NCBI GenBank assembly: GCA_007833815.1
Contig: CP033464.1
Span: forward strand, 4,458,001-4,522,000
DNA length: 64,000 nt
Source: Brevibacillus laterosporus
GTDB lineage: Bacteria; Bacillota; Bacilli; Brevibacillales; Brevibacillaceae
Direction of reading: 5' to 3'
Part shown: positions 11,663-49,423 of the stretch, piece by piece
Layout: the number at the start of each line of letters is the position of its first letter
How positions within the stretch are numbered: position 1 is the first letter of the stretch
The notes under the pieces: model-generated
Database searches by the model: none
What the model was told of the DNA's origin: nothing
The model's input: only the letters and a program-made list of their open reading frames with translations
Made by a program: the position numbers and the translations under genes

Positions 11663-11968
11663 CTATTGCAACTCTTTAAAACTGCCCATCTCTATTAATC
11701 TATATTCACAAGTGTAATCTTCTAGCAATTCTTCTGTTTCAGTAGACGATTCGAACCATTTACAAAATCCTTCTTGCACTTTAAGAACTCCTTCAAAAAC
11801 ATGTCCGCAAGCAGCTACATATTCATGCAAATCGTTGAGTGAAGCTAGAGAACGATGAGGATAACCTTTTGCTACCATAAAACAATCAGTTGTCAGTTCC
11901 CAATTTGCAGATATATTTTCAAAATCATGTACTATGTATACTAGTGTGGGCTGTGAGGATGTAATCAT
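11663..11968 (-). CDS. Small protein, paralogue of the 12584-12853 product
   Basis: About 101 residues from the ATG at 11968. It shares the segment SLNDLHEYVAACGHVFEGV with the gene on the other side of the repressor at 12146, so the two are paralogues. The remaining sequence is aromatic and acidic. No function is recognised. Confidence 0.65.
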   Translation of the reverse strand: MITSSQPTLVYIVHDFENISANWELTTDCFMVAKGYPHRSLASLNDLHEYVAACGHVFEGVLKVQEGFCKWFESSTETEELLEDYTCEYRLIEMGSFKELQ

Positions 11969-11998
11969 TAATATCAATCCTTCCATACACTTTTTAAA

Positions 11999-12145: not shown

Positions 12146-12466
12146 ATGAAGTTAGGTGAAAAAATCAGAGTCTATCGTAAAAACAGAGACTTAACAGCAA
12201 AAGAGCTTGCAGAAAAGGCTGGAATTGCACAATCTTCTATTAGCGATATTGAAAACGAGAAAACATCTCCAAGTGTCGAAACTTTATACAAAATTCTCTC
12301 AGCCTTAGAAGTAGATATTGGCTATTTTTTCAATACTGGCATATCTAATCTTCACCCAAATCTAATAGAACTGATTGAGATTGCAAAAGAACTGTCTCCT
12401 GAAGAACAACGAGCTTTGACTAAGTACATTGAATTGACATTAAATAGAAAAATGCCAACTCAATAA
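12146..12466 (+). CDS. XRE-family transcriptional repressor
   Basis: 106 residues. Residues 3-65 form a Cro/CI helix-turn-helix (LAEKAGIAQSSISDIENEK), followed by a short helical oligomerisation tail (LSPEEQRALTKYIELTLN) like SinR/ImmR-type repressors. It is one of few rightward genes in the left block and sits between two paralogous leftward genes with ATCGG operators upstream. Confidence 0.9.
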   Translation: MKLGEKIRVYRKNRDLTAKELAEKAGIAQSSISDIENEKTSPSVETLYKILSALEVDIGYFFNTGISNLHPNLIELIEIAKELSPEEQRALTKYIELTLNRKMPTQ

Positions 12467-12583: not shown

Positions 12584-12853
12584 TTATACATGCACATACT
12601 CACAAAAATATTCCCCTTGTTTATCGTGATATTCAGACCATGTAAAATCCCCTTCTGCAACTCTCACTACCCCTTTAAATATGTAACCGCAAGCTGCTAT
12701 ATATTCATGTAAATCATTTAATGATGCCAACTTATATTCTGGATCAATTTTTTGAGCTTCAACAGGACTTGTAACCAGATCCCATTCCCATGTGTCTGTA
12801 TTTGATTTATAGTTAAAATTGCACTTAAATATATCGGTTACAACAATTTCCAC
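12584..12853 (-). CDS. Small protein, paralogue of the 11663-11968 product
   Basis: 89 residues, GTG start after GGAGAGGTG. It contains SLNDLHEYIAACGYIFKGV, nearly the same as its paralogue across the repressor gene, followed by an acidic aromatic tail. The duplication suggests a paired function or recent amplification. The 200 bp upstream (12854-13052) holds AT-rich promoter-like sequence but no gene that I can support. Confidence 0.65.
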   Translation of the reverse strand: MEIVVTDIFKCNFNYKSNTDTWEWDLVTSPVEAQKIDPEYKLASLNDLHEYIAACGYIFKGVVRVAEGDFTWSEYHDKQGEYFCEYVHV

Positions 12854-13052: not shown

Positions 13053-13086
13053 AAAAAAAGACTATCCTAAATCGATAGTCTTTTTT
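13053..13086 (-). terminator. Terminator of the agr-like operon
   Basis: A perfect stem of about 13 bp: AAAAAAGACTATC (13054-13066) with GATAGTCTTTTTT (13074-13086). It includes the stop codon of the LytTR gene and ends the operon at that point. Confidence 0.85.
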
Positions 13087-13448
13087 GGAAAATTTTTTAA
13101 TAAAGCTGATTTTGCTCTAGATACAGTAGTGTATGTACCATCCTCGAAATAAACCCTAATGTCCGCATCGCTTTCCACTACAGACTTAATCTTGCTCATA
13201 TTTACTACATTTACAGAATCTAACGAACGAAACCCATGGTCTTTAAGCAATACTCGAAATCCTTCTAGGGTAGCAATCGGATGGTATTTGCCGTATATCG
13301 TATGGAAGGTAAGAATTTTAATTTTCCCCTGATAAATAAAACCAATATAAAGAATATCATCTAAATCTAATAATCTGTAGTCTGTTTCGTCATACTTTCT
13401 GTCAGCACGAATACCTGTGATTTTCATATATTCAGCCATTTTTTTCAA
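13062..13448 (-). CDS. Stand-alone LytTR-domain DNA-binding regulator
   Basis: 128 residues, made almost only of a LytTR domain: DDILYIGFIYQGKI, the HT-x-G-x-Y strand (HTIYGKYHPIATLEGF), GFRSLDSVNVVN and DGTYTTVSR. There is no receiver domain, unlike AgrA. The TTG start directly abuts the agrD stop codon, so translation is probably coupled. In LytTR regulatory systems such as HdrRM and BrsRM, a receiver-less LytTR protein is held by a membrane partner; the AgrC-type protein encoded upstream may do this here (inference). Confidence 0.85.
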   Translation of the reverse strand: MKKMAEYMKITGIRADRKYDETDYRLLDLDDILYIGFIYQGKIKILTFHTIYGKYHPIATLEGFRVLLKDHGFRSLDSVNVVNMSKIKSVVESDADIRVYFEDGTYTTVSRAKSALLKNFPKKTIDLG

Positions 13449-13571
13449 TTATTTTTTAATAAGTTCAGTTGGAACTTTTGGCGCTCCAACAAAAGACTTG
13501 TAGGAGACAGTGAACGTTTTTGCAGTTTTTTGAAGATATTTTGAAGCTAATTTTGCGATAGTCTTATTCAT
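13449..13571 (-). CDS. agrD: AgrD-like autoinducing peptide precursor without cysteine
   Basis: 40 residues, start overlapping the agrB stop (ATGA) and preceded by AAAGGAGGTG. The layout is that of AgrD: an amphipathic N-terminal helix (residues 1-20), a short core (SYKSF or a nearby window) and the conserved charged tail PKVPTEL. There is no Cys. Ser23 takes the place usually held by the ring Cys if the tail is aligned to clostridial AgrD, which predicts a lactone rather than a thiolactone. The exact ring borders are inferred. Confidence 0.82.
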   Translation of the reverse strand: MNKTIAKLASKYLQKTAKTFTVSYKSFVGAPKVPTELIKK

Positions 13572-14095
13572 GGCTGACACCTCCTTTCAAGTGCAGGAAT
13601 TAACGTTAACGCTTGTACAAATAAAGCTAAACTAACGACTGTGTTCTCTAGATAAAAACCAATACCTACAATCAATACTGAAACAATCTTGAGGTATGGT
13701 AATGCTGATAAAGGAATATTATTTTCCTCTTTACTTTTGGGTGCATATATAGCAACCAACAAAAAAGTGATTAAATTAAAATACAATAAAAGGCTTTTAT
13801 CAATCTGCAAATGTGGTATAAGTGATATTATTGTTGTAGACACCCAATAGCACAAAGTCATGGTTTTTGCGTGCCATCCTCCAGAAACTAAACGCAGCAA
13901 TGAGAAAGAAACTAGAGCTATTAACGTATCAATCGCTTTACCAGTAATAACGCCTATAATCAAGGAGCTAACAATAATCGCTATTCCGTTCAGTTGTATA
14001 GCTAATGAATAAGCTAAAACCTCTTCACTTGCCGATTCTTCAGGAGTTGCCTTTTTTATTATATGGGCTATAGTTGATGCGACTCTTTCTACCAT
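13568..14095 (-). CDS. agrB: AgrB-like membrane endopeptidase
   Basis: 175 residues with about five hydrophobic segments. The active site is plain: His75 and Cys82 in SGGWHAKTMTLCYW, the same seven-residue spacing as His77 and Cys84 of staphylococcal AgrB. It would cut the AgrD C-terminal tail and help cyclise the peptide. It overlaps the upstream sensor gene by 7 bp and agrD by 4 bp, so the four genes form one tightly coupled operon. Confidence 0.93.
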   Translation of the reverse strand: MVERVASTIAHIIKKATPEESASEEVLAYSLAIQLNGIAIIVSSLIIGVITGKAIDTLIALVSFSLLRLVSGGWHAKTMTLCYWVSTTIISLIPHLQIDKSLLLYFNLITFLLVAIYAPKSKEENNIPLSALPYLKIVSVLIVGIGFYLENTVVSLALFVQALTLIPALERRCQP

Positions 14096-14763
14096 AAATC
14101 TTCCGCATCCCTTCTATTAGCCACAAAGTATAGCAGACAAAACACAATCGTCATGATAAAAGCAAGAATGTGTAACCAGTTCAGATAATAAATTAGTAAG
14201 TAAGGGGCTAAAAAAAGCGTAGCAACACTAAGCATTATCCCTATAAGTAAGAACAAATTAACCCCTCTCATTTTTACCTTTAAGTGAACATCTTGAGGTG
14301 GACAAATGATAAATGAGAACCCCAGATTTGACTTATAAAAACACCAAGCGACTAAAAACAAAAATACTTCGGAAGAGAATTGAATTAGATATGTCCCAAA
14401 GTTAGAAGTACTTTGTATATCCTCCGGCGTAACAATGCCAGTAAATGAGAGAAAATAATAAATTGCAAGCTGTGAAACAGTATTTGATAAATAACCAATA
14501 GAAGCTAGTAAGAAAGAGTCAAAAATCTTTATTTTGATCAAATACCTAAAAAATACAACATAAAGAATAAATTGAATACCCATATCTAGTTCTGGGACAT
14601 TAAATACCAATCTCATAAAAAATGAGATAACTGAAAGCGCAACTCCTATAGTTACAAGCTCTCTTATAAACATTCTGATCGGGAAACGAAAGAACCGAAA
14701 AATAACAGCCAAAATTGCCATGACATCTACAAAACCAAGAACTAAATAAAGTACGATATCCAT
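14089..14763 (-). CDS. AgrC-type polytopic membrane sensor lacking a kinase domain
   Basis: 224 residues with six or seven membrane helices, resembling the N-terminal sensor part of AgrC/ComP-type kinases (FRFPIRMFIREL, a second helix pair around FFRYLIKIKIF). The protein stops after a short basic tail (NRRDAEDLW), and no DHp or ATPase domain follows in any frame; agrB starts inside its stop. It could bind the peptide and control the LytTR protein directly. A decayed kinase is the alternative, but the intact overlaps argue against decay. Confidence 0.75.
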   Translation of the reverse strand: MDIVLYLVLGFVDVMAILAVIFRFFRFPIRMFIRELVTIGVALSVISFFMRLVFNVPELDMGIQFILYVVFFRYLIKIKIFDSFLLASIGYLSNTVSQLAIYYFLSFTGIVTPEDIQSTSNFGTYLIQFSSEVFLFLVAWCFYKSNLGFSFIICPPQDVHLKVKMRGVNLFLLIGIMLSVATLFLAPYLLIYYLNWLHILAFIMTIVFCLLYFVANRRDAEDLW

Positions 14764-14821
14764 TGTAATTTCTCCATGTTTGTGTTTTGGAATCGCTATT
14801 TCTAATTACTGTTGATAAAAT

Positions 14822-14892
14822 TGTCTAGTTTCGTTACATTCTAATTATAGTGTTTTTTTAGTTAATAACAAGCAAGAAAATGTATGTCTAGT
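14822..14892 (-). promoter_or_regulatory. Promoter and TGTCTAGT direct repeats of the agr-like operon
   Basis: Minus-strand TTGTTA (14866-14871), a 16-bp spacer and TATAAT (14844-14849) give a good promoter. Plus-strand copies of TGTCTAGT at 14822-14829 and 14885-14892 flank it, exactly 63 bp or six helical turns apart. LytTR proteins bind spaced direct repeats, so these are candidate sites for feedback control. The rest of 14764-15056 is AT-rich with no gene seen. Confidence 0.55.
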
Positions 14893-15039: not shown

Positions 15040-15058
15040 ATGAAATGCGTATTTTATT
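15040..15058 (+). repeat. Dispersed 19-bp element, copy 1
   Basis: ATGAAATGCGTATTTTATT, matching the consensus ATGAAAG-N5-TTTTATT seen at several gene borders. It overlaps the stop codon of the SEFIR gene. Confidence 0.5.
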
Positions 15059-16490
15059 AAGGCTTTACACAAATATCATCTGGCTTTATGTGATAAGCTA
15101 TGGTTTCAATAGAATTTGCCGATCCATAGCCTTCTCGGTATTTATTATCAAAATTTTCTATGATGGATACCAGCTCTTCTGCATTAATAACATTAAATAA
15201 TACTTTAATACGCTCAAAGTGCTTTTTAGATCTTAGTTTCTGTAAAAGTTCTATTTTTTGATGACCTCCATAAATGTAAGTAATCGGAAACCATTTAGGA
15301 TCATAATCAGTATCCTCAATAAGGATAATAGACCAATAATAAAGCAGTTTATCTGTCGCAACTAATTGTTGTTTGGAATAATTTCTTAGCGTACATCGTT
15401 CAATCAGATACTGAGCTTGAAGACTATACTTTCTCATTTCTAGCCTTTGATTGCGTATTTCATTAATTGACCTTAAATAAAATCTAAACTTAGTGAAAGT
15501 TTCTGGAGTTTTTTGGTTATATTGTGTTTTTAAATAATATTCAGTCACTAGGAGTTGGTACAATTCCCCATAATTCTTTTTATCGAGAAGAATCATACAC
15601 GTGTATAAAAATAGTTCATGCACAAAAAATTTATAATGATCTGTCTTTATGTCGTGGGAATCATTCCCATCAGTTAAACTCCACAAGTTTTCAAATAAGT
15701 CTATGAGTGTATCTATATCGAAATCTCCAGAGTCAACGCTCAATTCTAAAAAGCTTATGTAGTCATTACGTAAAGGTAACATCTTATCAATATTATCTTT
15801 AATAACATCGTCAAAAGTATCTCGATCCTCTACACTGTCAATTTTAAGAGGTTCTAGACTATGTAATAACTCTTCGACAAAGTTTTGAGATAGTGAATTA
15901 ACTCTTTTGGGGTTTCTAATTATAGCGTCTTTAAGTTGTTTTAGAATGTTTGTTGTTGTGTAATGTGAAATTTCTTCAGAGAAAAGCCATTCAGGAGCAT
16001 CACCTAGCGCTGGTTTTTTATAAAGTGGTCGATTATAGATATTCCTAAGTAGTTTTTCAAAGCCCTCTTCAAATCTATCATCCAAGGATAAATCAATATA
16101 CAATCTTGTTCTCATATATATTGGAACATAATCCTCGCCATTGTCACTTCTCTCGGAAACGATGGGAATAAATTTTTCCTGCTTTACATCTAAGTATACC
16201 TCTGGACTAATTATTTGTGTTTCTGTTCCCACACCGCCTTTTCTAGTTTCTGAACGTTCTTTATATCCTTTATCACAGATAATTAATACCTTATCTGTTT
16301 CCTCTGCTCTAACCATGCCTTCCATAAAAGCGTATGTGTCCTGTCCCTCTTTTAAATCCCATTTGTCAAGTTTTACATCCACTCCTGACTCTCTAAGTCG
16401 TGTAGCTAAAGAGACAACCCACTCTTCATGCTCTGTTGAAGTCCAAGCATAAGAAATAAAAACTTTTGGATTGGCGATAGTCATAGACAT
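15057..16490 (-). CDS. SEFIR/TIR-like domain protein, probable phage defence
   Basis: 477 residues. Residues about 8-150 form a SEFIR domain: PKVFISYAWTSTEHEEWV, LRESGVDVKLDKWDLKEGQD and the DKVLIICDKGY strand. The remaining 300 residues are helical, without a known motif, and may sense or oligomerise. Bacterial SEFIR proteins act as single-gene abortive defence systems, apparently through NAD depletion. Here it lies beside a HEPN gene and the agr-like operon, like cargo of a prophage that protects its host from other phages. Confidence 0.85.
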   Translation of the reverse strand: MSMTIANPKVFISYAWTSTEHEEWVVSLATRLRESGVDVKLDKWDLKEGQDTYAFMEGMVRAEETDKVLIICDKGYKERSETRKGGVGTETQIISPEVYLDVKQEKFIPIVSERSDNGEDYVPIYMRTRLYIDLSLDDRFEEGFEKLLRNIYNRPLYKKPALGDAPEWLFSEEISHYTTTNILKQLKDAIIRNPKRVNSLSQNFVEELLHSLEPLKIDSVEDRDTFDDVIKDNIDKMLPLRNDYISFLELSVDSGDFDIDTLIDLFENLWSLTDGNDSHDIKTDHYKFFVHELFLYTCMILLDKKNYGELYQLLVTEYYLKTQYNQKTPETFTKFRFYLRSINEIRNQRLEMRKYSLQAQYLIERCTLRNYSKQQLVATDKLLYYWSIILIEDTDYDPKWFPITYIYGGHQKIELLQKLRSKKHFERIKVLFNVINAEELVSIIENFDNKYREGYGSANSIETIAYHIKPDDICVKP

Positions 16491-23019: not shown

Positions 23020-23457
23020 TTATGGATTTACCATTAACTTTTCATAATTTAAAATCTGTTCATATGTTAGCCATTCAGGTTTTTTATTGTTTGGAAAACT
23101 ATTGTACAATTCTTTCATTTGGTCAATGTGTTTTTGTTCATCATTAAGATACAACCGATTTTTATTCCTATTTCCATAACCAAGGTAATAATCACAGTCA
23201 CTTCTTAACCTATCGAGCATCATATAGTTAAATCTGTTTTCCTCTTTAACGTACTGGTTCTTAAAGTGTATTTCCAAATCTGATTTTATGGGGCTATCAG
23301 GTTCACCGTCAAAGCTGTTTTGGCAACTATATAGCTCTGGTTTCTCACTTCCTAATGTTACATCTTTCCATAGCATGTTTGATTCAATACATTTGTAAAC
23401 TGGTCTATCCCAATCGTCAACGCCTAAAAATTCCATTTTTCTAACTTTATTATCCAT
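23020..23457 (-). CDS. LPD11-domain protein
   Basis: 145 residues from the ATG at 23457 behind AGGAGTG. The N-terminal half has DRPVYKC, WKDVTLG and DGEPDSPI. The C-terminal half fits LPD11 (large polyvalent protein-associated domain 11): NRFNYMMLDRLRSDCDYYLG, then EWLTYEQILNYE. LPD domains are common in polyvalent phage and plasmid proteins that enter the host with the DNA; the exact function is unknown. It lies next to two DNA-modification genes. Confidence 0.75.
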   Translation of the reverse strand: MDNKVRKMEFLGVDDWDRPVYKCIESNMLWKDVTLGSEKPELYSCQNSFDGEPDSPIKSDLEIHFKNQYVKEENRFNYMMLDRLRSDCDYYLGYGNRNKNRLYLNDEQKHIDQMKELYNSFPNNKKPEWLTYEQILNYEKLMVNP

Positions 23458-23537
23458 TTTAGTCACTCCTATAATTTTAGATTTAATAAAATAGTGTCAT
23501 TTCATCATATACAACAAGTATTTTGCATTTTCATTTT

Positions 23538-25473: not shown

Positions 25474-27336
25474 TTATATCGGTTTATACGTGTTTACAAT
25501 TGGTCTGATTCCCTGTTGTTCAAAGAGATTTAAAATCTCATCATACAGCTTTTTGTCACATGACAAGTACTTACTTTTGGTTAATGTGTAACCATTACAC
25601 ACTTCTACATCATGTAATACGGTTTCAGGTAGATCATGCCAGCCTTTATATACTAACAAAGTAGAATAAAAGTAGTTGTAATATAATTGTCTTTTATTCA
25701 CAGGTTTAAAAGTTAATTTTACAGCATTTTTATATTGTGCGTATGTTGTAGATTCTACGCTGTCAAATGTTATACGATTCGTGACAATTGTTCCAAAGTC
25801 AGAAATATAAAACAGTGTGAGTTTTTCGCCTTGTTGTATGTCTGCATTTTTGAATTGCTCCTGTATTCCATCCACTTCTTGCAGTAATTTATACATGCTT
25901 ACTTTTAGGGGTTCAGTGTACAACTGTTGTATAATTTTCTTTGTTAACTTCATATTGTATTGCTTAAATTTCTCTTTGATTGCTTCTTTGTACTCTTTCC
26001 AGCTTTCATTTTGCCATGTTTCAATGATATCTAAATCAGAAATAATATTGGTAGAAATATTCTCTAATTGGTCAGCCTGTTCTTTTAATGCTGTTATTTT
26101 TTCTTCACTTATTACCTGTTCGTATTTGAACGTCATTTCTATTGTTGCGTTATTTACTAGTCCAACATATCGAGCATAACTATATCCCTGTGCATCTATC
26201 ACGAATTGCAATTTGTTATTAAGATATACTGCAACTCCTAGTAAATTCCATTTTACAGTTTTCTTTTCGTCTTCATCCATGTTATAGAAATCTGCCATTG
26301 AATTAATTCTGTTATCGTCTGTATAACTTCCACCAGTTTCACATAGAAAGTCAAAATCATGTAATAACATGTTAGTAAAATATGTTAACGCTTCTTCATT
26401 GTTAAAATGTACTTCTTTTGTTATTTTCACGTTTTCGAGTGAGTATTCGCCCTGTTCAACTTCTTCCTTATATTCATCGATTGTATTATTTTTATTCATA
26501 TTTGCAAATTCAGAGCCGATTACAAAATATTGTTCGTTTTCTTCTAGTGTTTTTACATCTACGCTGTTATAAATAAATTCAATTTGTTTTTGTTCCTCTT
26601 GTTGGTGTTTTTTATATTCAATTTCTTCTAGTTCCCTTTGTTGTTGCCATTCTAAAAATTCTTGATGTCTTTTTTCTTCTTCAGCTTTTTGAGCTTCTTC
26701 AAATTTAATATCAAAATCTTTCATATTGTTTTCAATTTCTTCTGTTACTTTAGTTTGTGAATATTGCCAGTCAATTTCTACCCATCCATAAAAATTGTAA
26801 CTTCCTGCATAATCAGTGTAAGGGTCCGCTGGATCATAGCAATGATTATAAGCATTTAAAAGCTTACTGCAATATTCTCTGATTGCTATCAAGTATTTAC
26901 TTTCCTTCTCATATGGAGAAGATACAATGTAAAAATTAATGCTATTGTAATCACTTGTTACTGAAAATTTGCACTGAGGAAATCTTTTTCTGACGTGTGT
27001 GCGAATTTCCTTTGCCATTTCTTTTGTATACTGTTCCCTGTTAACTTCAATATCAGTCCATTGTGTAGAATCCCACAAACTAATATTATTATTTTTAGTT
27101 TTAGTTTTTTTAACTACTTTTTCTGTTGATATTGCGACTTGTTCACTGTCAATTGTAAGACTTCTAGCAATTTGGAAAGCCCTTTCTGATTGCTTTGTGT
27201 ACCAGCATTTTTTAAATCCTGACCATCTAAAACCATTTTCTTTCAAGTTGTCAATTACTTTTTGTACAGGCTTAGAATTAAAGAATAATTCAATTCCATT
27301 TAATTCCTCATTGATCTTCAATGTTGCTGTTCCCAT
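25474..27336 (-). CDS. Large polyvalent-type protein with N-terminal substrate-binding-like domain
   Basis: 620 residues. Residues 10-60 (GIELFFNSKPVQKVIDNLKENG, FRWSGFKKCWYTKQ) match a small domain often linked to phage and plasmid methylases and antirestriction proteins. The middle is a charged coiled coil (about 210-245). The last 130 residues share a domain with the 27725-28342 product: TFKP-x-NKR, a tyrosine-rich strand and KGWHDLPETV. It probably works with the methyltransferase encoded just downstream; the chemical role is unknown. Confidence 0.65.
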   Translation of the reverse strand: MGTATLKINEELNGIELFFNSKPVQKVIDNLKENGFRWSGFKKCWYTKQSERAFQIARSLTIDSEQVAISTEKVVKKTKTKNNNISLWDSTQWTDIEVNREQYTKEMAKEIRTHVRKRFPQCKFSVTSDYNSINFYIVSSPYEKESKYLIAIREYCSKLLNAYNHCYDPADPYTDYAGSYNFYGWVEIDWQYSQTKVTEEIENNMKDFDIKFEEAQKAEEEKRHQEFLEWQQQRELEEIEYKKHQQEEQKQIEFIYNSVDVKTLEENEQYFVIGSEFANMNKNNTIDEYKEEVEQGEYSLENVKITKEVHFNNEEALTYFTNMLLHDFDFLCETGGSYTDDNRINSMADFYNMDEDEKKTVKWNLLGVAVYLNNKLQFVIDAQGYSYARYVGLVNNATIEMTFKYEQVISEEKITALKEQADQLENISTNIISDLDIIETWQNESWKEYKEAIKEKFKQYNMKLTKKIIQQLYTEPLKVSMYKLLQEVDGIQEQFKNADIQQGEKLTLFYISDFGTIVTNRITFDSVESTTYAQYKNAVKLTFKPVNKRQLYYNYFYSTLLVYKGWHDLPETVLHDVEVCNGYTLTKSKYLSCDKKLYDEILNLFEQQGIRPIVNTYKPI

Positions 27337-32001: not shown

Positions 32002-32193
32002 CTATTCATACAGATCAATGTTAATAGTCAAATCATCATTTACATGTGTATCATAATCAACCTTTAAGCCATCTAGAATGTCAGTAATTAATTGAACCAT
32101 ATCACCTTGTTCAAACGCTTCATTGTTATTAGCGATGGTTACAGTATCATCGTTAGTTAATACAGACATGTATCTTACAAATTCATTAAGCAC
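32002..32193 (-). CDS. 63-residue acidic protein
   Basis: Acidic, alpha/beta, overlapping the ADP-ribosyltransferase gene by 8 bp and preceding the helicase gene by 22 bp. Small size and overlap suggest one operon with both. No motif. Confidence 0.6.
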   Translation of the reverse strand: MLNEFVRYMSVLTNDDTVTIANNNEAFEQGDMVQLITDILDGLKVDYDTHVNDDLTINIDLYE

Positions 32194-32647
32194 AGCAATT
32201 CACCTCTTGTAAATATTTATGTGAAGCTATTTGCACATTTGGCTTCAAGAGTATATAAACTGTTTGCGTTCCTTCATCGTTCGAAAGATCAATCTTTGAA
32301 TCTGTAAAAATGATCGTATCATAACCAGCGTTGACAATCAGATTTTTGAACTCCTGAATGTATTCAGCATTATTTAAAAGGAATTTCATGTCTTCTCTAG
32401 TTGGCTTATTAGTGTCAATATATTTATTTGAGATAGGAATATTGAAAAAGAATTCATCAAAGTTATCAGTATGTGCAAAAAAGGGGTTATTGATTTCTAC
32501 ATTAACAGATACTACATTCTTCCCATACATATTAGCTTTATCAGGTGATTCAGTTAGCCATGTACCAATTGAGTTATAGTTGGCTACTGGTAGATCAATG
32601 AAATTGATATCCGTTTCCCATGTACCATGATATAGAACATTCTGCAT
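32186..32647 (-). CDS. ADP-ribosyltransferase (ART-PolyVal-like)
   Basis: About 153 residues from the ATG at 32647. The pattern is that of ARTs found in polyvalent phage proteins: LYHGTWE at the start, GTWLTESPDKANMYG, VEINNPFF, and GYDTIIFTDS near the C-terminus followed by a strand YILLKPN. Such enzymes transfer ADP-ribose from NAD to host proteins, often to redirect transcription. It is the first gene of the leftward unit with the helicase gene. Confidence 0.7.
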   Translation of the reverse strand: MQNVLYHGTWETDINFIDLPVANYNSIGTWLTESPDKANMYGKNVVSVNVEINNPFFAHTDNFDEFFFNIPISNKYIDTNKPTREDMKFLLNNAEYIQEFKNLIVNAGYDTIIFTDSKIDLSNDEGTQTVYILLKPNVQIASHKYLQEVNCCA

Positions 32648-33028
32648 TATAAGCATCTCCTTTAGTTAAAGTTAGAGGATTATAAGTGGATAGTTAGAGG
32701 AACATATCGAGGAAAAACATTTTATTATCTGAGGTTCTTTATATTTATATTATATCATATTAGACTTATCATGTATACATATTTTTACTTAATATTTGAG
32801 TGTATATGTGATAGTTGTAAGGTAACAGTGTGACAGATGGGCATAGTAAATGGGATATGAAGTGTTCGGCTCCGGCTTACATGTTATAAATCGAATAGGC
32901 TTATATAATAGCTATTTATTACATTCTGAATTTCCTTAAAATAGTTGAAATGTTTATGCTCATCTTCTATTGAGGGTTTTATATGGTCATTTGTATATAT
33001 TGGTGAGTTAAGAAGGTGATTACTCAAC

Positions 33029-39291: not shown

Positions 39292-40215
39292 ATGTCAATA
39301 AAAAAAGTAAATAACAAAGAAAAAGAAAAAATTGAATGTTTAAAGTGCGTAAAAAAAAGAGTTGCAAGTAGCTTTTATGTAAACACCAATCCCCTTCTAA
39401 CTACAAAAAAATTTATAGTTTGTAAAGATTGTCTGAATGAATACATAGGTGAAAAAGCAACAGAAGGTTATTTTGAACGTGTTATTCATGTTCTATCTAT
39501 GCTGGATAAACCATTTTTCTATGATCAATGGGAAAATCTCGAAGGAGATTGGTCTAAGTACATTCCACCAATTTCATCTTTCCCACAATACAAAGGAAAA
39601 ACCTTTGCTGACAGTGTCTTTAGCCAAGCAGCAAACGATAGTTTTGAAAGCTCTTTGCAACCTGACCCCGAATTTACAAAGATTGAATTTTCATCAGATG
39701 AATTGCAAAGTTTAATTGATTTTTGGGGCAGAGGTTTTAAAAATGAGGATTATGAATTCTTACAAAATGAATTCAATCGTTTTATAAATTCATATGAGTG
39801 CGATGGTTATACTATGGAACTACTCTTTCAAGAAGCTTCACACACAAGATTAACCATCAAGAGAAAACGTGAAAAGAACCAGCCCGTTGATAAAGAACTA
39901 AAGACGCTACAAGACTTACTTGGATCAGCAAATATTAAGCCTGTTCAAGAAACTGGTGCTAATGCAACAGAACACGCCACTTTTGGCACATTGATAAAAA
40001 AATACGAGAATGAACGTCCCATACCTGAACCAGACCCTACTTGGAGAGATGTTGATAGCATTCGTAAGTACATAAACATATGGTTCTTAGGACATTTATG
40101 CAAAATGATTGGTATCAAGAATGAATACTCTATTGCCTATGATGAAGAAATGGAAAAATACACAGCGGAGCCACCTAAATTTGAAGATGATGAAACAAAC
40201 GAAGGTGATCAATAA
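39292..40215 (+). CDS. Putative small terminase subunit with N-terminal zinc cluster
   Basis: 307 residues. Two cysteine pairs (CLKC, CKDC) lie in the first 50 residues, then a helical region with acidic tail. Proteins of this kind often stand directly before the large terminase of Bacillus phages and are thought to recognise the packaging site. The stop codon overlaps the TerL start (TAATG). The assignment rests on position and general layout. Confidence 0.55.
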
Positions 40216-41999
40216 TGGCTGGAATTCCAAATTATCAAGTTGATAGAAACAAAGCTCACAAAGGAATTAGTATTTTTCAAAAAGGTAGGAACTTTAACAA
40301 GGCTCTAAGCAACCATAATAAATCAGAAAGATTAATGACTGGAATTGGCGTATGGACTAGCTACTATCGATCAAACCCCCATCGTTTTGCAAAAGAGTAT
40401 TTAGGTATTGATCTAAAACTCTTTCAAGTCATCCTGATTTATATGATGAGCGTTTCTCATTACTTCATGTATCTAGCTAGCCGTGGACAAGGTAAAACTT
40501 GGTTAACTGCGATTTATTGTTGTATACGTTCTATTTTATATCCCGAAACCAAAATAGTAATTGCTTCAGGTACTAAAGCTCAAGCAAGAGAAGTAATAGA
40601 AAAAATAGACGATTTAAAGAAAAATTGTCCAAATCTCTTTAGAGAAATCAGCAACCTGTCTACTTCTGCTAATGACCCCAAGGTGGAATTTCACAATGGT
40701 AGTTGGATAAAAGTAGTTGCATCAAACGATGGCGCACGAAGTAAACGAGCCAACTTATTAATAGCAGATGAGTTCAGGATGATTGATCTTGAAATAATCA
40801 ATAAAGTGCTGAGGAAGTTTTTAACTGCTCCAAGACAGCCTAAGTATCTTGGAAAGCCTGAATACGCTCATTTAAAAGAAAGAAATAAGGAAATATATCT
40901 TTCTTCATGCTGGTACAAAATACACTGGTCGTGGGCAAAGCTGCAAGCATTTTTTAAATCCATGACGGACAGTAAACAATATTTTGTATGTGGACTCCCC
41001 TATCAAATGGCAATTAAAGAAGGATTGTTGATGACAGAGCAAGTTGAAGATGAAATGTCGGAATCTGACTTTGATGAAGTTGGTTTTTCTATGGAGATGG
41101 AATGTTTATTTTTTGGTGAATCAGAAAAAGCTTTTTTTAAGTATGAAGACCTTGAAAAAAATAGAAAGCTGCCTAAGCCAATATTTCCAAAACCCATGTA
41201 TTACATAATAAAAGATACCTCTTTTAGATATGAAAATAAGAAAAATGATGAAATTAGACTATTAACTTGTGACATCGCAGGAATGGCAGGAAAGGAAAAT
41301 GACGCAAGTGCTTATTCCATGCTGAGACTGATACCTACTTCCAAAGGCTTTGAGAGACATATTAGTTATATGGAAAGTATGGTGGGAGGTCATACAACTT
41401 CACAAGCTGTGAGAATTCGGCAGCTCATGGAGGATCTTGATTGTGATTTCCTAGTGTTAGATACTCAAAGTTTTGGTTTGGGGATTTATGATCAATTAGT
41501 TCAGCCCCTTTATGATCGAGAAAGACAAGTAGAATACGAACCTTGGACTTGCATAAATGATCAGCGAATGGGTGAACGATGCACCTATCAAAATTCGCCC
41601 AAAAGAATCTACAGCATAAAAGGGAACCCTCAATTTAATAGTGAATGTGCAGTTCTGCTTAGAGACGTACTAAAGCGTGGAAGTATGAAAATGTTAGCAA
41701 AAGAAACAGAAGGCAAAGAATATCTTGAAAAACTTAAAGGATTCAGTTCTTTACCAATTGAACAAAAAGTTAGATTTGAATCTGTGTATATTCAAATCAC
41801 TGCCTTAATTAATGAAATGATTAATCTCGAAGGTGAACGTCTAGATAGTGGGTTAATTAGATTAAAAGAGCCTAGATCTAAGCGTAAAGACCGTTACAGC
41901 TCTATAACTTATGGGAACTATATTGCCACTGAACTAGAACGGCAGCTTCTAAAACAAGATATTTTCGATGAAGATGATGATTTTGTATATTACAACTAA
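40215..41999 (+). CDS. terL: Terminase large subunit
   Basis: 594 residues. ATPase motifs are Walker A SRGQGKTW (89-96) and Walker B LLIADEF (181-187). The C-terminal nuclease part has the acidic strands [13 protein letters not shown] and [12 protein letters not shown] and a later acidic end. It cuts and drives DNA into the prohead through the portal encoded next. SPbeta YonF has a similar size and place. Confidence 0.93.
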
Positions 42000-42010
42000 G
42001 GAGGTGAATT

Positions 42011-43534
42011 ATGCCCCGTGGACGACCTAAAAAACCGAAGGTTGATTTTGAAACAGAAAGACAGCTAAATGCTATAGAAGAATATACCGCTCTTTTTGCA
42101 GAAGGCTTTGTTTCAAACATGTTTAATGATGGAATATTGAGCGAAGTATCCTCAAAACAATTGCTTACTTATCTTTCTGATCCTGATAATTACATAACTG
42201 AGTTGAATAATTTAGCTCATTACTATTACATTACTTCTGGTGAAGTTTTCCAATTGTTCGAATTAACTAAGGTTCTTCCTACTCTAAATTATAAGATTGA
42301 AGTGTATGACAAAGGTAAAAACTACGAAAAGAATTTAATGACATGCAATAAAGCTTTAAGAAAAGTGAAACACAAGCAACTGTCTAGAGATATTATAACT
42401 CAGCTCATTTCAACTGGCACACTTGTGGGAATTTGGCTTGGCGATAAAAAGAACCCCTACTTTTACATTTTTGATGATTTAAAGATAGCATCGCCAGCCT
42501 ATAGAGTGAATGGCGAATGGATTATTCAAGTTGATCTATCTGCTATTGGTAGCCTTGATGATTTGCAAAGAAAAGCTTTTCTCGATAATCTTACTCCCTA
42601 TGTCACAGAAAAAATGTATGAAGACTATAGAATAGATTCCTCAAAGAAATTTGTTTATCTCCCCCAAGATCGTACTGTTTGCTTACGTACACATACTTTA
42701 AAAAGGAATCAAGCTTATGGATTAAATTGGGCTTTAACGGGTTTTTTTGATTTACAGCATAAGAAAAAACTAAAAGATATAGAAAAGTCTATTGCCAATA
42801 AAATCATCTCTGCGGTTGCTGTTTTGACTATCGGTAGCGAAAAAAATACAGAGTTAGGAAATTTAAAGTTAAATAAAACTATTAAACAAAAAATCCACTC
42901 TGGTGTTAAGGCTGCTCTTGAAAAGAACCAGTCTAAAGGAATCACTGTCGTATCAATCCCCGACTTTGCCAGCTTAGAGTTTCCTGAAATGAAATCAGAT
43001 GCGTTAGACCCTAAAAAATTTGATTCGATAAACAATGATGTTACCTCTGCCTTTGGGACAAGTCCTGCCATTTTAAATGGTACAGGTGGGAACTTTGCCT
43101 CTGCTAAGATCAGTCTGGAAGTCTTCTACAAGAGAATAGCTATTCTTCTTGAAGATATTGAGCAAGATGTTTATCAAAAACTCTTCAAAATCATCCTCCC
43201 CTCTTCTGTTTTCGATGATTACTACCTCGTTTATGACAAAGAACCTCCTCTTACCCTTAAAGAAAAAGTAGATATCCTAATGAAACTCCACACTCAGGAA
43301 GGCTTTAGTTTAAAAGCAGTAATCGATTTGATGAGTGGATTAGATTTTAACGAGTATGTAAATCAGTCAATTTATGAACAAGAAGAAATGAAGCTTCAAG
43401 AAAAAATTAAGCCGTATGCGAGTGCTTATACCGCCACTGAATCAAATAAAACTGGAAGACCAAATAATGATGAACCCACCTCTGAAAATACCATTAAAAG
43501 CAAAACTAACAATGGTAATGAACAACCCACTTAA
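42011..43534 (+). CDS. Portal protein
   Basis: 507 residues, with AAGGAGGTGAA before the ATG. Position between terminase and protease/scaffold, size, an N-terminal helical part, a central beta domain and an acidic, Asn/Pro-rich tail fit phage portals. The segment TSPAILNGTGGNFASAKISLEVF is characteristic of this group. It forms the ring through which DNA enters. Confidence 0.82.
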   Translation: MPRGRPKKPKVDFETERQLNAIEEYTALFAEGFVSNMFNDGILSEVSSKQLLTYLSDPDNYITELNNLAHYYYITSGEVFQLFELTKVLPTLNYKIEVYDKGKNYEKNLMTCNKALRKVKHKQLSRDIITQLISTGTLVGIWLGDKKNPYFYIFDDLKIASPAYRVNGEWIIQVDLSAIGSLDDLQRKAFLDNLTPYVTEKMYEDYRIDSSKKFVYLPQDRTVCLRTHTLKRNQAYGLNWALTGFFDLQHKKKLKDIEKSIANKIISAVAVLTIGSEKNTELGNLKLNKTIKQKIHSGVKAALEKNQSKGITVVSIPDFASLEFPEMKSDALDPKKFDSINNDVTSAFGTSPAILNGTGGNFASAKISLEVFYKRIAILLEDIEQDVYQKLFKIILPSSVFDDYYLVYDKEPPLTLKEKVDILMKLHTQEGFSLKAVIDLMSGLDFNEYVNQSIYEQEEMKLQEKIKPYASAYTATESNKTGRPNNDEPTSENTIKSKTNNGNEQPT

Positions 43535-43552
43535 AGGAGGTGAGAAATATAA

Positions 43553-45004
43553 GTGGATAAGAAATCGAGCTTCAAGCTTCAACTAAATGAAATTAAACAA
43601 TCTGATGACCCCACTCTTCTATCAGCTACTTTTATCATCCATGATTTTGAAGAGTCATGGCATGGACAAATTGTTTCAAAAGAAGTTTCAATGGGAGCCG
43701 CACACACTTTATTGAATAAACCAATTGTAGCTAAATATTATCCTGTTTCTCAATTTGGAACATTATCTGATGCTCTTGGGGGTCATGAAGAGCACCTTGA
43801 CTATGATCGATATGGCGAACGAACAGTAAAAACTGACACTATTCCGATTGGCGTATTCTCTTCGGAGGGGTACTTAATGGTTATCAATGAAAATGGTCAA
43901 GAAAAAGAAGTTCTCGCAGCCGATGCAGTTCTATGGCGTTTTCGCTTTAGTGATGTATGTGATTTATTACTGGAGTGGTATAGTCGTGGCATTCAGATTT
44001 TTTCGAGTGTGGAATTTTTGTACAGAAATTATTCTTTCAAAGATGGAATTGAATATGTGGAATCACCCATAATTTATGATGGTCACGCCCTATTAAATTC
44101 TGAAGAGCGAAACGGGCATAAGGTAGTTGCTCCAGCATACGATTCCTCTACCCTACTCAGTTTTAATGATTTAAAACAATTTAACAGGCTTATTGCACAA
44201 GCTATCAATCAGAAAGAAAAGGAAGGTGAATCAATGTTTTTCAAAAAAATATGTGAACTGTCACATGAAGACGTTCGTTCAAAACTTTATAATCAAATCT
44301 CAACACAGATGGCAGAGCAAGAATACAACAGTTCTTATATTGTCAGTGTTTTTGATACTTCTTTCATTTTTGAAAGTTGGAATGAACATGATGGGGTTAA
44401 GCATTATAAAGTTGATTACGGTAAAAATGGTGATGTCCTGACAGTAAATATGGATTCAAAAACTGAAGTTGTTGAGCAAAGGACATGGATTACAACAACT
44501 GAAGTTGAGCAAATGCAAACTCAATTAAATGAAGCAAATAAAAAAGCAGAACAATTAGCCTCAGAAAGTCAAATTCTCTCCTCTTCTTTGAACCAGCTCA
44601 CCCAAGATAAAGGTCAGCTTGAGAAACAATTCAACGAAGCCTCGGACAAGCTAATTTCTTTGAGTTCTCAATATCAAGAGTTGCAAACATATAAAGAAAA
44701 GTATGAAACTGAACAACTTGAAAAATCTTTAAACGAGAAAAAATCCTACTATGCAGATAAATTTGAAGCTGTTAATGGTAAGGAAAAGTATGAAACTGAT
44801 GAGGTTCAAACTCTAATTAAGCTTTCTTTGAATTCTTCACTGGAAGGAAAGGATGCTGTTTTGCAACTTAATACTATGCTAGTTGATATGGTTGCTACAG
44901 CGCCTAAGAAACAAGAAGAACACTCTTTTATTAAAGAGTATGCCTCACAGACAAGTAAGCTTTTACCCGATGGTGACGATTTTGAAAGTAGATATGGAAT
45001 TTAA
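43553..45004 (+). CDS. Prohead protease fused to scaffold region
   Basis: 483 residues with GTG start. The N-terminal 200 residues (LSATFIIHDFEESWHGQIV, GHEEHLDYDRYGER, a His- and Ser-containing strand order) suit a capsid maturation protease, followed by a coiled coil (about 310-400) as in scaffolds. It lies between portal and capsid genes as expected. The catalytic residues are not certain. Confidence 0.6.
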   Translation: MDKKSSFKLQLNEIKQSDDPTLLSATFIIHDFEESWHGQIVSKEVSMGAAHTLLNKPIVAKYYPVSQFGTLSDALGGHEEHLDYDRYGERTVKTDTIPIGVFSSEGYLMVINENGQEKEVLAADAVLWRFRFSDVCDLLLEWYSRGIQIFSSVEFLYRNYSFKDGIEYVESPIIYDGHALLNSEERNGHKVVAPAYDSSTLLSFNDLKQFNRLIAQAINQKEKEGESMFFKKICELSHEDVRSKLYNQISTQMAEQEYNSSYIVSVFDTSFIFESWNEHDGVKHYKVDYGKNGDVLTVNMDSKTEVVEQRTWITTTEVEQMQTQLNEANKKAEQLASESQILSSSLNQLTQDKGQLEKQFNEASDKLISLSSQYQELQTYKEKYETEQLEKSLNEKKSYYADKFEAVNGKEKYETDEVQTLIKLSLNSSLEGKDAVLQLNTMLVDMVATAPKKQEEHSFIKEYASQTSKLLPDGDDFESRYGI

Positions 45005-45035
45005 TTAAACAAATTTTAATAGGAGGCTTATATAA

Positions 45036-45569
45036 ATGACTACTCGTCAAATGCAAACTCTAACTCAACGTGGTAATCACGAAGTTGGTAATTTAAATGC
45101 AATTAAGGTACGCACTTTAGCAAATGGTGCGATTGTAGAAGGTGGTGATATTGATAACTTTACTCTAGTTGAACTAGGTTTTAATGCAGAGGGTGAAAGA
45201 ACTTGTAAGCAATTAACTAATGTTGAAAATGAATCTTATCTTATTGCAACACCAGAAGATCGCTATTTAGGTGAGGAATTAATTGATTTCTTTAATGCTG
45301 AAGGAGAGCGTGCTCGTATCGTTTATTGGTATAAAGGTTTTCGTTATGACACTTCTGCTTTTAAGCTCAATTCTGGCGTAACTGAAGTGAAAGAAAATCA
45401 AGTCGCACACTTTGACCCCACATCAAAAAAATACATTATTTCTTTGGCTTCCTCGCCTCATGCCGATTACGTAAAATCTAAAACTAAATTCCTTGTTGTC
45501 AGTAATGAAGATAATCTGGAATACACCTGTGGTAAACCGCTTGTTAAGTTAGAAGTTCAAGAATTTTAA
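45036..45569 (+). CDS. Capsid-associated or decoration-like protein
   Basis: 177 residues, beta-rich, ahead of the major capsid gene with its own strong AGGAGG site. Position suggests a head decoration or head-stabilising protein. No motif confirms it. Confidence 0.5.
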   Translation: MTTRQMQTLTQRGNHEVGNLNAIKVRTLANGAIVEGGDIDNFTLVELGFNAEGERTCKQLTNVENESYLIATPEDRYLGEELIDFFNAEGERARIVYWYKGFRYDTSAFKLNSGVTEVKENQVAHFDPTSKKYIISLASSPHADYVKSKTKFLVVSNEDNLEYTCGKPLVKLEVQEF

Positions 45570-45598
45570 TCAATTAAATAGAATAAGGAGCAATGTAA

Positions 45599-46597
45599 AT
45601 GAAGCAAATCGATAATGGTAAATTAAAAGAACTTTTTAATAGAGTTTACAATAGCAAAATGGATAAAACTGATCAAGAAGACTTAAAAACCTATTGCAGT
45701 AAGGTTTTTAGCACAAGTTATCCTGATCCCTCTCTTCTTCATCAATTTAACTCTCTAATTGTGCAAAAGGCAGATGAAATTGCTAAACCCAAGGTGACTG
45801 AGATTATTGGATTGTTAGCAACTTTAAAAACAGCCGATCGAAATACTGTTGTAAAATATGAACTTCCCCAAAAATTTAAAGCAAAGGTACAATGGAGTGC
45901 TAATGGTTCTGGAGTAGATTTGGTACGTATCGATGGAAAAAAATATGTAACTGCTATTCCTAACAAGTTCTCTACTGGATTTTACTATGAACCTTTCGGT
46001 GATACCAAAGAAGTTGTTGAGTATTTTAATAAATTAATTGATGATGTAGCAAATGCAAAAGTTCGCCTGTATTTAGACGCTATTTCAAAAATTACACAAA
46101 AAGCAATCCTCTCTGGTAAAATTCCTGCAAAAAATGTTAAGCAAGGTGCAAATTTAAAAATTACAGATTACAACAGTTTAGCTTCTGTTCTATCAAGATA
46201 TGGTGGTCGTCCAATTTTTGTTGCTGATAGCTTGTTGATTGACTATTTTGCAATGCAACAACCAGCAAATCTAATTAGTGATCCTAGAAAAGATGAGCTT
46301 CTTACATCGCTAAATATCTCTACAGTGGGTAGAACTAATGCAGTTAATCTTGTCAATCCATTTATTGATGATTTCAATTCTAAAGTTGAGCTTCCAGTAA
46401 ACGTAGGTTATATGTTCGCAGGTGATGTTAAACAAAAGCCTTTTGCTGTAACAGAATTTGGTGCTCTTCAACAAATGACTGAGCAAAACATGGAAGATGA
46501 ACGGATTAAGATGAAAATTGTTCAATTTGCAGATATCAGACTCCTATTTGGACAAATCTTAGGAATTCTAAAAGAAGACGCTGCTGTAGCAATCTAA
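45599..46597 (+). CDS. Major capsid protein
   Basis: 332 residues. A helical N-terminal arm, the following beta strands (STGFYYEPFGDTKEVVEYF) and a long spine-like helix, then GRPIFVADSLLIDYF and a late strand set, fit HK97-type capsid proteins of SPbeta-like phages. Size and place support the call. Confidence 0.75.
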   Translation: MKQIDNGKLKELFNRVYNSKMDKTDQEDLKTYCSKVFSTSYPDPSLLHQFNSLIVQKADEIAKPKVTEIIGLLATLKTADRNTVVKYELPQKFKAKVQWSANGSGVDLVRIDGKKYVTAIPNKFSTGFYYEPFGDTKEVVEYFNKLIDDVANAKVRLYLDAISKITQKAILSGKIPAKNVKQGANLKITDYNSLASVLSRYGGRPIFVADSLLIDYFAMQQPANLISDPRKDELLTSLNISTVGRTNAVNLVNPFIDDFNSKVELPVNVGYMFAGDVKQKPFAVTEFGALQQMTEQNMEDERIKMKIVQFADIRLLFGQILGILKEDAAVAI

Positions 46598-46601
46598 TAA
46601 A

Positions 46602-46622
46602 TAGAAGAGATTTCTTCTCTTC
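46602..46622 (+). other. Hairpin after the capsid gene
   Basis: GAAGAGA and TCTCTTC pair around five bases between the capsid stop and the next ribosome site; there is no T run, so it may protect the capsid mRNA. Confidence 0.4.
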
Positions 46623-46649
46623 AGATGACATTAAGGAGGATAAATTCAC

Positions 46650-47129
46650 ATGGAAAAAATGATTAATGTGGCAAGATATCGTAACACACCTTACGTAGTA
46701 AATTATCAGTTTAATAATGGTAATGAAAAAACGTATCAATGGACTGGGAGCACTAAGGCTAAGGTTGATATTAAGTCAGTTCCTCAGCAACTCGTTGATT
46801 ATTTACTTATGTCCAGTCAAACATTCCGTGATGGTGAATTAGTTATCGTTAACGATTCCGATGAAGCCAAGGAAGCCCTTGAAAATATCACTGATAAGGA
46901 AAATTACGAAAGTAATACACGTACACGTCAAGAAATTGTTACGTTACTTAAAATGAATCCTACTAAGTTGAAGACTGAATTGAAAAAAGTAACTTCTGAT
47001 TCTGAAAAAAGGTTCATTCTAGACGTTGCCAAAGAAGAAAAAATTGATAGTGCTGCTACTCGAAAAGTATTGGCTGATTGGTCTGAAATTCCTCAAGACA
47101 TTCTGTTTGAAGACGAAGAAAAAGAATAA
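46650..47129 (+). CDS. Head protein, unknown role
   Basis: 159 residues. A beta-rich N-terminus with small Lys-rich motifs, then a helical acidic C-terminus. It sits right after the capsid gene, where head-associated proteins are common. Confidence 0.5.
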   Translation: MEKMINVARYRNTPYVVNYQFNNGNEKTYQWTGSTKAKVDIKSVPQQLVDYLLMSSQTFRDGELVIVNDSDEAKEALENITDKENYESNTRTRQEIVTLLKMNPTKLKTELKKVTSDSEKRFILDVAKEEKIDSAATRKVLADWSEIPQDILFEDEEKE

Positions 47130-47141
47130 GCTGGTGTTGCC

Positions 47142-47543
47142 ATGAAGAACACTACCTACGATCAAATCTACACCACTTTTATCACTCGTTGTAAAGTTGA
47201 CGATCTGGAACTTCCCCAAAATGATGAACAAATCTATGATTTCATCCACGGAGCAATAATGGATTACAACAATCGTCTTCGTGAAGATATTGATTGGGAT
47301 GACACAAGTGAGACAGTTTCAAAAAAATTACCAAATGATGACCTTCTCCTACTTGCTCACTATCTAAGGATTACCTTTTTAAAAAACCAGTTAATTTACT
47401 TCACTAATACTTGGCAACCATTCACAAAAGATATCGGATTAAAGAATTATCAGGCTCAATTACGATCACTTGATACCCTTGTGGCAAATGAAGAAAAAAA
47501 AGTCGAGAACATCATACAGAATCGAGCTGATGACTATTTATGA
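47142..47543 (+). CDS. Head-tail connector protein
   Basis: 133 residues, mainly helical, like gp6/gp15-type adaptors that attach to the portal. It overlaps the next gene by 4 bp (ATGA). Function by position. Confidence 0.55.
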   Translation: MKNTTYDQIYTTFITRCKVDDLELPQNDEQIYDFIHGAIMDYNNRLREDIDWDDTSETVSKKLPNDDLLLLAHYLRITFLKNQLIYFTNTWQPFTKDIGLKNYQAQLRSLDTLVANEEKKVENIIQNRADDYL

Positions 47544-47770
47544 TGATTAATAATGAGTTCGATCAATTAGAAAATATCCAAGTATATTGTGAACGTCTAA
47601 GCAGAAAAAATAATTCTACTCTTTTCCGTCTTGAAAAGTTTACTGGACTAAAATTATTACAAGAAGAAGAATTGAGAGAGATACGAGAAATTATATTGTC
47701 GGTCAGTGGTGAGATTTCACGTCTTCCTAGTAAGTTAGCCTGCGGATGTGATTGCGATAAAAAGCTATAA
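47540..47770 (+). CDS. Small helical connector-region protein
   Basis: 76 residues, helical and charged with two cysteines near the end (CGCDCDKK). It overlaps both neighbours, so translation is coupled. No function recognised. Confidence 0.5.
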   Translation: MMINNEFDQLENIQVYCERLSRKNNSTLFRLEKFTGLKLLQEEELREIREIILSVSGEISRLPSKLACGCDCDKKL

Positions 47771-48917: not shown

Positions 48918-48925
48918 GAGGATAC

Positions 48926-49423
48926 ATGAAAAGATTAAGGCTATGGAGTCCAAATTTACAATCTATTATTTTGGAGCTAATTAAAAATCAAAGACTATGC
49001 AAACTAATTCACTATAATAATGAGAATCCTTTAGAACAACCTGATATCTTGAAGCCTTCTTCATTAATAATGAAGAATATCTTTCCCTATCCATTTGATC
49101 TTGAAACTACAGATTCTGATTGCGTCCAACTTAGGATAAGTTATCCAGAGCTGAATATTAAACACAGAGTTATCGAAAATACAGATGTCTTATTTGAAGT
49201 TGTCATGTCAAAGAATCTGTGGAGCATCAGTACAGATAGCGAGACAGCTCTTCGTCCTTTTGAGATATTGAGTGAGATTTTAGACCAGCTTGCTGATAAG
49301 AGTATTGAAAAAGTTGGGAGACTTAATTTCCTCAATGCTAGGTTTGTAAAATATAATTCAAAGTTTAATGGATATGAGTTAACCGCTGTGATGGAGACTA
49401 TCGGGACAGGAAGAAAAAAATGA
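48926..49423 (+). CDS. Tail completion/terminator protein (probable)
   Basis: 165 residues, alpha/beta, behind AGGAGG and followed by a 4-bp overlap with the next gene. Place and size suit a tail terminator. No motif. Confidence 0.5.
   Translation: MKRLRLWSPNLQSIILELIKNQRLCKLIHYNNENPLEQPDILKPSSLIMKNIFPYPFDLETTDSDCVQLRISYPELNIKHRVIENTDVLFEVVMSKNLWSISTDSETALRPFEILSEILDQLADKSIEKVGRLNFLNARFVKYNSKFNGYELTAVMETIGTGRKK

Follow-up and report, generated by a model that had tools for sequence, protein, structure and literature searches.

The window analysed here is a 64,000-nucleotide stretch of the Brevibacillus laterosporus genome (contig CP033464.1, positions 4,458,001 to 4,522,000), and its subject is a four-gene cassette resembling the agr peptide-signalling operon, encoded on the minus strand at 13062-14763 in the order sensor, AgrB, AgrD-like peptide and LytTR protein. 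A preliminary description, made from the letters of the window, had taken these genes for a phage-borne quorum-sensing operon without a kinase, in which a membrane sensor could signal directly to a LytTR regulator. The features of the cassette, in window coordinates, are as follows.

14844..14871, minus strand: tentative promoter-like site TTGTTA-16-TATAAT, preceding the sensor gene and common to the related locus L014
14089..14763, minus strand: kinase-less AgrC-like sensor, 224 residues, seven predicted transmembrane (TM) helices, PHROG 15604
13568..14095, minus strand: AgrB-type membrane peptidase, 175 residues, with R68, H75 and C82 conserved
13449..13571, minus strand: AgrD-like signal precursor, 40 residues from the ATG at 13571, no Cys
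13488..13499, minus strand: predicted signal core K-S-F-V, with the Lys(-4) codon at 13497-13499; the cut site is inferred from the tail anchor
13461..13487, minus strand: AgrD recognition tail GAPKVPTEL, of the PxxPxEL type
13062..13448, minus strand: receiver-less LytTR DNA-binding protein, 128 residues (TTG start) or 125 residues (ATG 13439)

The genes had been described as four overlapping ones. The sensor and AgrB genes do overlap, by 7 nt, as do AgrB and AgrD, by 4 nt, whereas AgrD and LytTR merely abut. The listed open reading frame (ORF) of AgrD spans 13449-13580 from a GTG, but this codon (13580) overlaps the GGAGG ribosome site and the ATG at 13571 is therefore the probable start. 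All four products have phage relatives, as matches to PHROG families show (that of the peptide is weak, E 0.01). The window AgrB matches its Pfam family at 7e-21, and R68, H75 and C82 are present in 79/79 aligned AgrB sequences, which upholds the earlier view of an intact AgrB with His75 and Cys82. The presence of an AgrD-like gene is likewise borne out by the tail GAPKVPTEL within a peptide of 40 residues from the likely ATG. The regulator matches Pfam LytTR at 5e-9 and has, in 128 residues, this domain alone, as had been claimed; the top matches to its predicted fold come from a B. cereus regulator and from AgrA, in both cases from the LytTR domain, and a PDB sequence search with it gave no significant match.

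The sensor had no listed Pfam or NCBIfam match up to E 10, and matched PHROG 15604 at 3e-59. In an hhalign comparison its profile was set against the N-terminal 230 residues of eight AgrC proteins encoded at AgrB loci; full-length checks on four of these showed HATPase and SPOB_a domains in each. Over 139 columns the match reached a probability of 92.5% and E 4.8e-7; the membrane-protein control, AgrB, stayed at 0.2%. By this profile evidence the sensor is homologous to the membrane domain of AgrC. Together with the seven predicted TM helices, this confirms the AgrC-type assignment of the preliminary description; at 224 residues and with no HATPase match, the protein is also, as stated there, without a histidine kinase. 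The structure model has seven helices (pLDDT 83, pTM 0.80), and fold searches with it against PDB and BFVD gave no significant match. Four open frames of 418-453 residues also match the sensor model at their N-terminus, and a Pfam kinase domain is absent in the three of these that were fetched. AgrC-like proteins of 413-450 residues, with a kinase region unrecognised by Pfam, stand between the kinase-bearing and kinase-less states; a PDB sequence search with one such degenerate AgrC gave no significant match.

The cassette recurs widely. In a tblastn search, sensor and AgrB were found in the same eight phage records among 50,697, from Brevibacillus phages Abouo, Davies and Emery and Paenibacillus larvae phages Paisley and Harrison (some records are duplicates), and the sensor was found in 3/72,556 plasmids. 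The preliminary description had proposed looking for the same gene order in other phages: by ORFs and hidden Markov models (HMMs), sensor-AgrB-AgrD-LytTR is present in all seven phage and plasmid regions that were opened, despite annotation that omits the sensor in one plasmid and gives a short one in another. IMG/VR contributed 32 loci from the sensor alignment (one being phage Abouo), and a single-protein scan gave L014. Matches were present in 4/6 genomes of the genus sample, 13/40 of the order, 36/399 of the class and 6/398 of the phylum; these samples are nested, the phylum sample was run with a different alignment, and the genome loci examined were the best 30 or fewer matches per sample. 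Recurrence of the order in named phages, plasmids, IMG/VR contigs and genomes is far beyond chance. The host genome itself has six AgrB genes, all adjoining such a sensor: one in the window prophage, one on a 60-kb contig and four elsewhere on the chromosome (one of these with a broken sensor). Among these are four Lys-type cassettes and one Ser-type, the types being those of the peptide described below, distributed over prophage, 60-kb contig and chromosome and all with different cores. The sensor of one chromosomal paralogue has a 91% relative in Brevibacillus laterosporus, the nearest named host.

Repeated cuts of one and the same host-genome site were dropped, which left an assembled set of 84 loci. 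Most were found via the sensor, and near-copies remain (L036 and L039 are one operon, L007 and L050 one phage). AgrB is present in 84/84 and an intact sensor alongside in 83, the exception (L029) being a broken copy; the set holds 79 distinct sensors and 79 distinct AgrB. The preliminary description had named two findings that would speak against a kinase-less system. The first, a kinase encoded elsewhere in the phage, is not supported: none of the host's 51 HATPase_c, 20 HATPase_c_5 and 48 receiver matches falls in the window, and by the coordinates listed no kinase match lies elsewhere in the prophage, whether in the window, in 18 kb to its left or in 19 kb to its right. The second, recent loss of the kinase by frameshift, was rejected, since 81/83 intact AgrB-adjacent sensors are 211-249 residues long and AgrB overlaps the sensor end.

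The peptide departs from classical AgrD. At -5, where a Cys or Ser would be expected to close a five-residue ring, the window peptide has Tyr, followed by Lys at -4; the absence of the usual ring residue was overlooked in the preliminary description. The 83 intact operons comprise 64 with the Lys-type peptide of the window and 19 with a Ser/Cys-type. Cores were anchored on the Pro six residues after the cut, independently of the residues compared. Among unique 11-residue cores, Lys(-4) occurs in 45/45 of the Lys class and 0/12 of the Ser/Cys class, and Ser or Cys at -5 in 12/12 of the latter, a contrast that is partly definitional because the classes were assigned from the peptides. That no operon lacked both Lys(-4) and Ser/Cys(-5) is not a definitional result. 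Conservation of the tail elsewhere is mostly by construction, as the search required P-x-(E/A/Q/D)-(L/M/I). Cys, Ser and Thr are all missing from -5 in 43/45 Lys-class cores, and one of the three is found somewhere at -3 to -1 in 19/45. As a check, 21 loci drawn by AgrB alone (L111-L128, L130, L133 and L134, leaving out the kinase-less sensor loci L129 and L131 and the broken L132) yielded 12 recognisable AgrD, all with Ser/Cys(-5), after six further pattern strings in other frames or at other prolines had been dropped by eye. The Lys class covers 20 AgrB clusters at 50% identity. On an AgrB tree built by a quick method from 78 rows, without L029 and L061, peptide class requires three changes, so the Lys-class rows are not independent; the tree has many long branches and fits a single or several origins of the class alike.

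The sensor varies with the peptide. D60 is present in 62/62 Lys-class sensors, two orphan tandem sensors included, and in 0/19 of the Ser/Cys class; F71 follows the same division (61/62 and 0/19). In the 79 sensors, loops 1-2, 3-4 and 5-6 and the C-terminus are positively charged and the remaining loops neutral or negative, a pattern that suggests an N-out/C-in topology. On this topology the GFSFIxxPP loop would face the cytoplasm, with D60 close to the outer end of TM3. The full motif, GFSFIxxPP(H/Q)D, lies in the predicted cytoplasmic TM5-TM6 loop, which is modelled with low confidence. A chromosomal Lys-type clade (L094-L104) has G(F/Y/S)DF(V/I)PDK in this loop instead, and L013 deviates too.

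Known autoinducing peptides (AIPs) are closed through Cys or Ser according to passages of PMC12312760, and an excerpt of PMC4979651 describes an AgrB acyl-enzyme that is attacked by Cys to give a 16-membered thiolactone ring. Counted by hand, a ring closed at Ser/Cys(-5) has 4 + 4x3 = 16 atoms and one closed through the side chain of Lys(-4) has 7 + 3x3 = 16. The invariant Lys(-4) of the Lys-class peptide probably either closes it or mediates its recognition, and of the possible chemistries a lactam with a 16-atom ring is the one we tentatively prefer, at somewhat short of an even chance. A linear peptide is possible but doubtful: in the same cassette AgrB would only hydrolyse the precursor, and the free Lys(-4) would pair with D60. 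The perfect co-occurrence of Lys(-4) with a D60 near the outer end of TM3 fits this well, as does the missing Cys, Ser or Thr at -5 in the 43 cores, while the atom count puts the Lys at the one position that keeps the 16-atom ring, D60 could read a lactam N-H as well, and linear S. aureus AIPs are given as inactive in the excerpt of PMC12312760. A linear product opposes the lactam alone, and otherwise overlaps with the interpretation given next.

We propose that the cassette is an agr-derived, conserved and mobile kinase-free peptide-signalling unit in which the sensor acts directly on the LytTR protein; judged from sequence, we hold this to be somewhat likelier than its converse. AgrB would cut AgrD before the GxPxxPxEL tail, and the mature peptide would accumulate outside the cell and bind the sensor on its outer face, close to D60. 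Through the conserved cytoplasmic TM5-TM6 loop, the sensor would then directly hold or release LytTR. LytTR, once held or released, would regulate phage genes, lysogeny being a guess at the output from the gene neighbourhood. Direct coupling is the simplest inference because the window holds no kinase or receiver match and LytTR is linked to the sensor: in searches with our own HMM, LytTR was found within 500 nt in 61/64 Lys-type operons and 4/19 Ser/Cys-type operons. The three Lys-type misses (L039, L058 and L077) have 256, 122 and 144 nt of sequence left after AgrB. Tandem double-LytTR proteins make up 18/65 of the LytTR proteins (genes of L011 and L055-L076), with halves 23-38% identical, and in L076 AgrD and LytTR share one open frame.

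Several observations weigh against this proposal. The Lys-class cores of L056, L058 and L061 lack PxEL and were positioned by eye; L058 combines Cys(-5) with Lys(-4) and L061 has Thr(-5). D60 could equally bind the free Lys of a linear peptide. No LytTR-type direct repeats stood out in the promoters (220 nt upstream). In 15/19 Ser/Cys-class operons no LytTR lies within 500 nt by our HMM, so sensor and LytTR are not inseparable, bearing in mind that in two of the 15 (L109 and L110) the sequence ends about 300 nt after AgrB. Pfam searches of downstream ORFs in six of the 15 found a receiver plus LytTR in L083 (253 residues), LytTR in L106 and a match below the cut-off in L105; L028, L091 and L108 were without LytTR in the same searches. 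The receiver-plus-LytTR regulator of L083 (also cut as L135) has no kinase-sized ORF nearby save a recombinase, and the host's 51 HATPase_c matches could supply a kinase. These last facts, with the 48 receiver matches of the host, are what would be expected if LytTR were an autonomous local regulator and the sensor a receptor subunit that pairs with AgrC or with a histidine kinase of the host. We consider such a partnership improbable, given that the LytTR of 61/64 Lys-type operons has no receiver to phosphorylate and that the cassette is found on phages, plasmids and chromosomes.

L135 (2878-5004) is a phage-like locus that joins its kinase-less sensor to a Ser-type AgrD, and is a possible intermediate. 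In L061, the AgrB frame ends with the peptide core.

In Davies and Emery the full operon is preceded by a second, orphan sensor (L008 3265-3924 and L009 3268-3933). The two orphans are 81% identical mutually and 66-69% identical to another allele group, and may be an eavesdropping receptor or a recombination scar. Immunity genes sometimes occur as a second orphan copy. The orphan and the Lys-rich precursors would also suit a system under LytTR control in which AgrB and AgrD produce an antimicrobial peptide of cationic type and the membrane protein serves for immunity to it or for its export. The homology of the sensor to the AgrC receptor domain, its variation with peptide class at D60 and F71, and the standard type of the AgrD tail leave this quite improbable. 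That the cassette is a functionless, degenerate agr remnant is very improbable indeed. One copy in the host genome is broken and another has a 62-residue ORF in place of LytTR, as decay would produce, but the frames are otherwise intact, the AgrB and sensor residues are invariant across the 20 Lys-class AgrB clusters, and the cassette is present on phages and plasmids.

Set beside agr and fsr (AgrBDCA), the cassette shares the AgrB His/Cys pair (H75 and C82), the AgrD tail PxxPxEL, the AgrC-type membrane domain and the LytTR output domain. It differs in lacking the AgrC kinase domain, the AgrA receiver and the ring Cys/Ser at -5, in having Lys(-4), and in its gene order, sensor-AgrB-AgrD-LytTR. 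The agr3 locus of phiCDHM1, as described in passages of PMC3901668, is likewise carried by a temperate phage in the order agrC-B-D; its AgrC, in contrast, includes a HATPase domain, and the locus yielded no response regulator. The same 2014 paper mentions AgrB/AgrD of Davies, Emery and Abouo with membrane proteins lacking the HATPase domain, so a kinase-less phage 'AgrC' is already in print; the excerpt mentions neither the LytTR gene nor the Lys peptide of these phages. Excerpts of other papers list AgrB genes and, separately, membrane proteins in a table (PMC4168068), the AgrB family (PMC4909266), and phage agr homologues without AgrA together with LytTR proteins in Pseudomonas phages (a 2025 review, PMC11945551). 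Among the matches listed in open-access PMC (preprints and subscription papers lie outside it) we recognised no Lys-type AIP and no kinase-less AgrB-LytTR cassette, nor, within open-access PMC, any D60 or LytTR partner of phage AgrB loci.

The preliminary description had likened the cassette to the HdrRM/BrsRM type of LytTR Regulatory System. A receiver-less LytTR protein beside a membrane protein, with direct control likely, is common to both, going by passages of PMC6193735. Membership was rejected, as most of the criteria in those passages failed. The regulator of HdrRM/BrsRM is upstream, whereas here the membrane gene comes first and LytTR last; the sensor is AgrC-like, with no match to the membrane inhibitor domains DUF3021 and DUF2154 (Pfam, E up to 10); and the cassette has a dedicated peptide gene. 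The excerpt also reports LRS-like operons of Bacteroides in which the membrane gene comes first, the reverse of the usual order, and direct repeats spaced 11-13 bp apart ahead of the operon promoter. In the window, the best pair of 9-bp direct repeats is equalled by about 23% of shuffles, and other operons show no trend; this was a simple test, on 220 nt upstream with mononucleotide shuffles only. The repeat search and promoter alignments revealed no convincing operator. The TTGTTA-16-TATAAT site is tentative because the scan gave 13 sites against 10.9 by chance. An AT-rich block near CATA(C/T)TAT(A/G)GG recurs in most of the ten Brevibacillus leaders that were aligned, and most of them have the leader AAATGTTAAT before the sensor start; the 5' leader around it is conserved in L007, L030, L032, L037, L047 and L051.

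The cassette was said to be on a phage. Phage genes do surround it (integrase, terminase, portal, virion and tail genes are present), but the window is part of a 5.56-Mb contig, the phage is a resident prophage, and the cassette is also chromosomal and plasmid-borne elsewhere. By its portal protein (42011-43534, 53% identity over 98% to SPbeta YonE) the prophage is SPbeta-like; no near-identity DNA relatives of window 40000-60000 were found in the phage collection. Arbitrium (AimR-AimP) likewise serves peptide signalling in SPbeta-like temperate phages, and differs in using an imported peptide and a cytoplasmic receptor. The AimR model NF038310 had no match in the host genome, although a very divergent AimR could escape it; in a control the model matched 4/14 genomes, B. 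subtilis among them. The agr-like cassette may take the place of arbitrium in the SPbeta-like prophage (window 34650-64000). As a whole, the fullest version of our proposal strikes us as unlikely: a kinase-free agr branch in which an AgrB-made Lys lactam is read by a D60-marked 7-TM receptor acting directly on a receiver-less LytTR, spread across Brevibacillus and Paenibacillus phages, plasmids and chromosomes and replacing arbitrium here.

An XRE gene (12146-12466) adjoins the operon, and an integrase or recombinase and repressor-type genes lie near it in Abouo, Davies, Emery and Harrison. Of 33 IMG/VR loci, 20 have XRE-type regulators and 6 have recombinase-like genes in the flanks that were fetched (phmmer, E 1e-3), counts that include self-hits of L014 and of L050 (phage Abouo) and come from flanks many of which end with the contig. 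We would guess that this neighbourhood suits a role in lysogeny; it is compatible with one without proving it. The XRE gene is flanked, downstream of the operon, by two similar small genes (11663-11986 and 12584-12853) with no Pfam match, and a pair resembling them is present in L014. Upstream of the operon lies a SEFIR/TIR-domain protein (15057-16490), possibly a defence gene, with the same neighbour in L014. Further afield, a phage tubulin (8919-10342, Pfam Tubulin 2e-13) beside a 95-residue gene possibly forms a TubZ-like partition or positioning system, and the early region has the polyvalent-protein domains LPD11 and LPD29 and an ADP-ribosyltransferase domain (23020-23466, 25474-27336 and 32186-32656).

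Both the wiring and the peptide chemistry of the cassette may be new. If the proposal is true, a phosphorelay receptor has come to act on a transcription factor with no kinase between them, and possible intermediates are still visible, from AgrC with its kinase, through AgrC-like proteins with a degenerate kinase region and a kinase-less sensor with a receiver regulator, to a kinase-less sensor with LytTR alone. The Lys-class products would then be a new chemical class of autoinducing peptide, testable by mass spectrometry, and the cassette a possible channel of phage communication unrelated to arbitrium.

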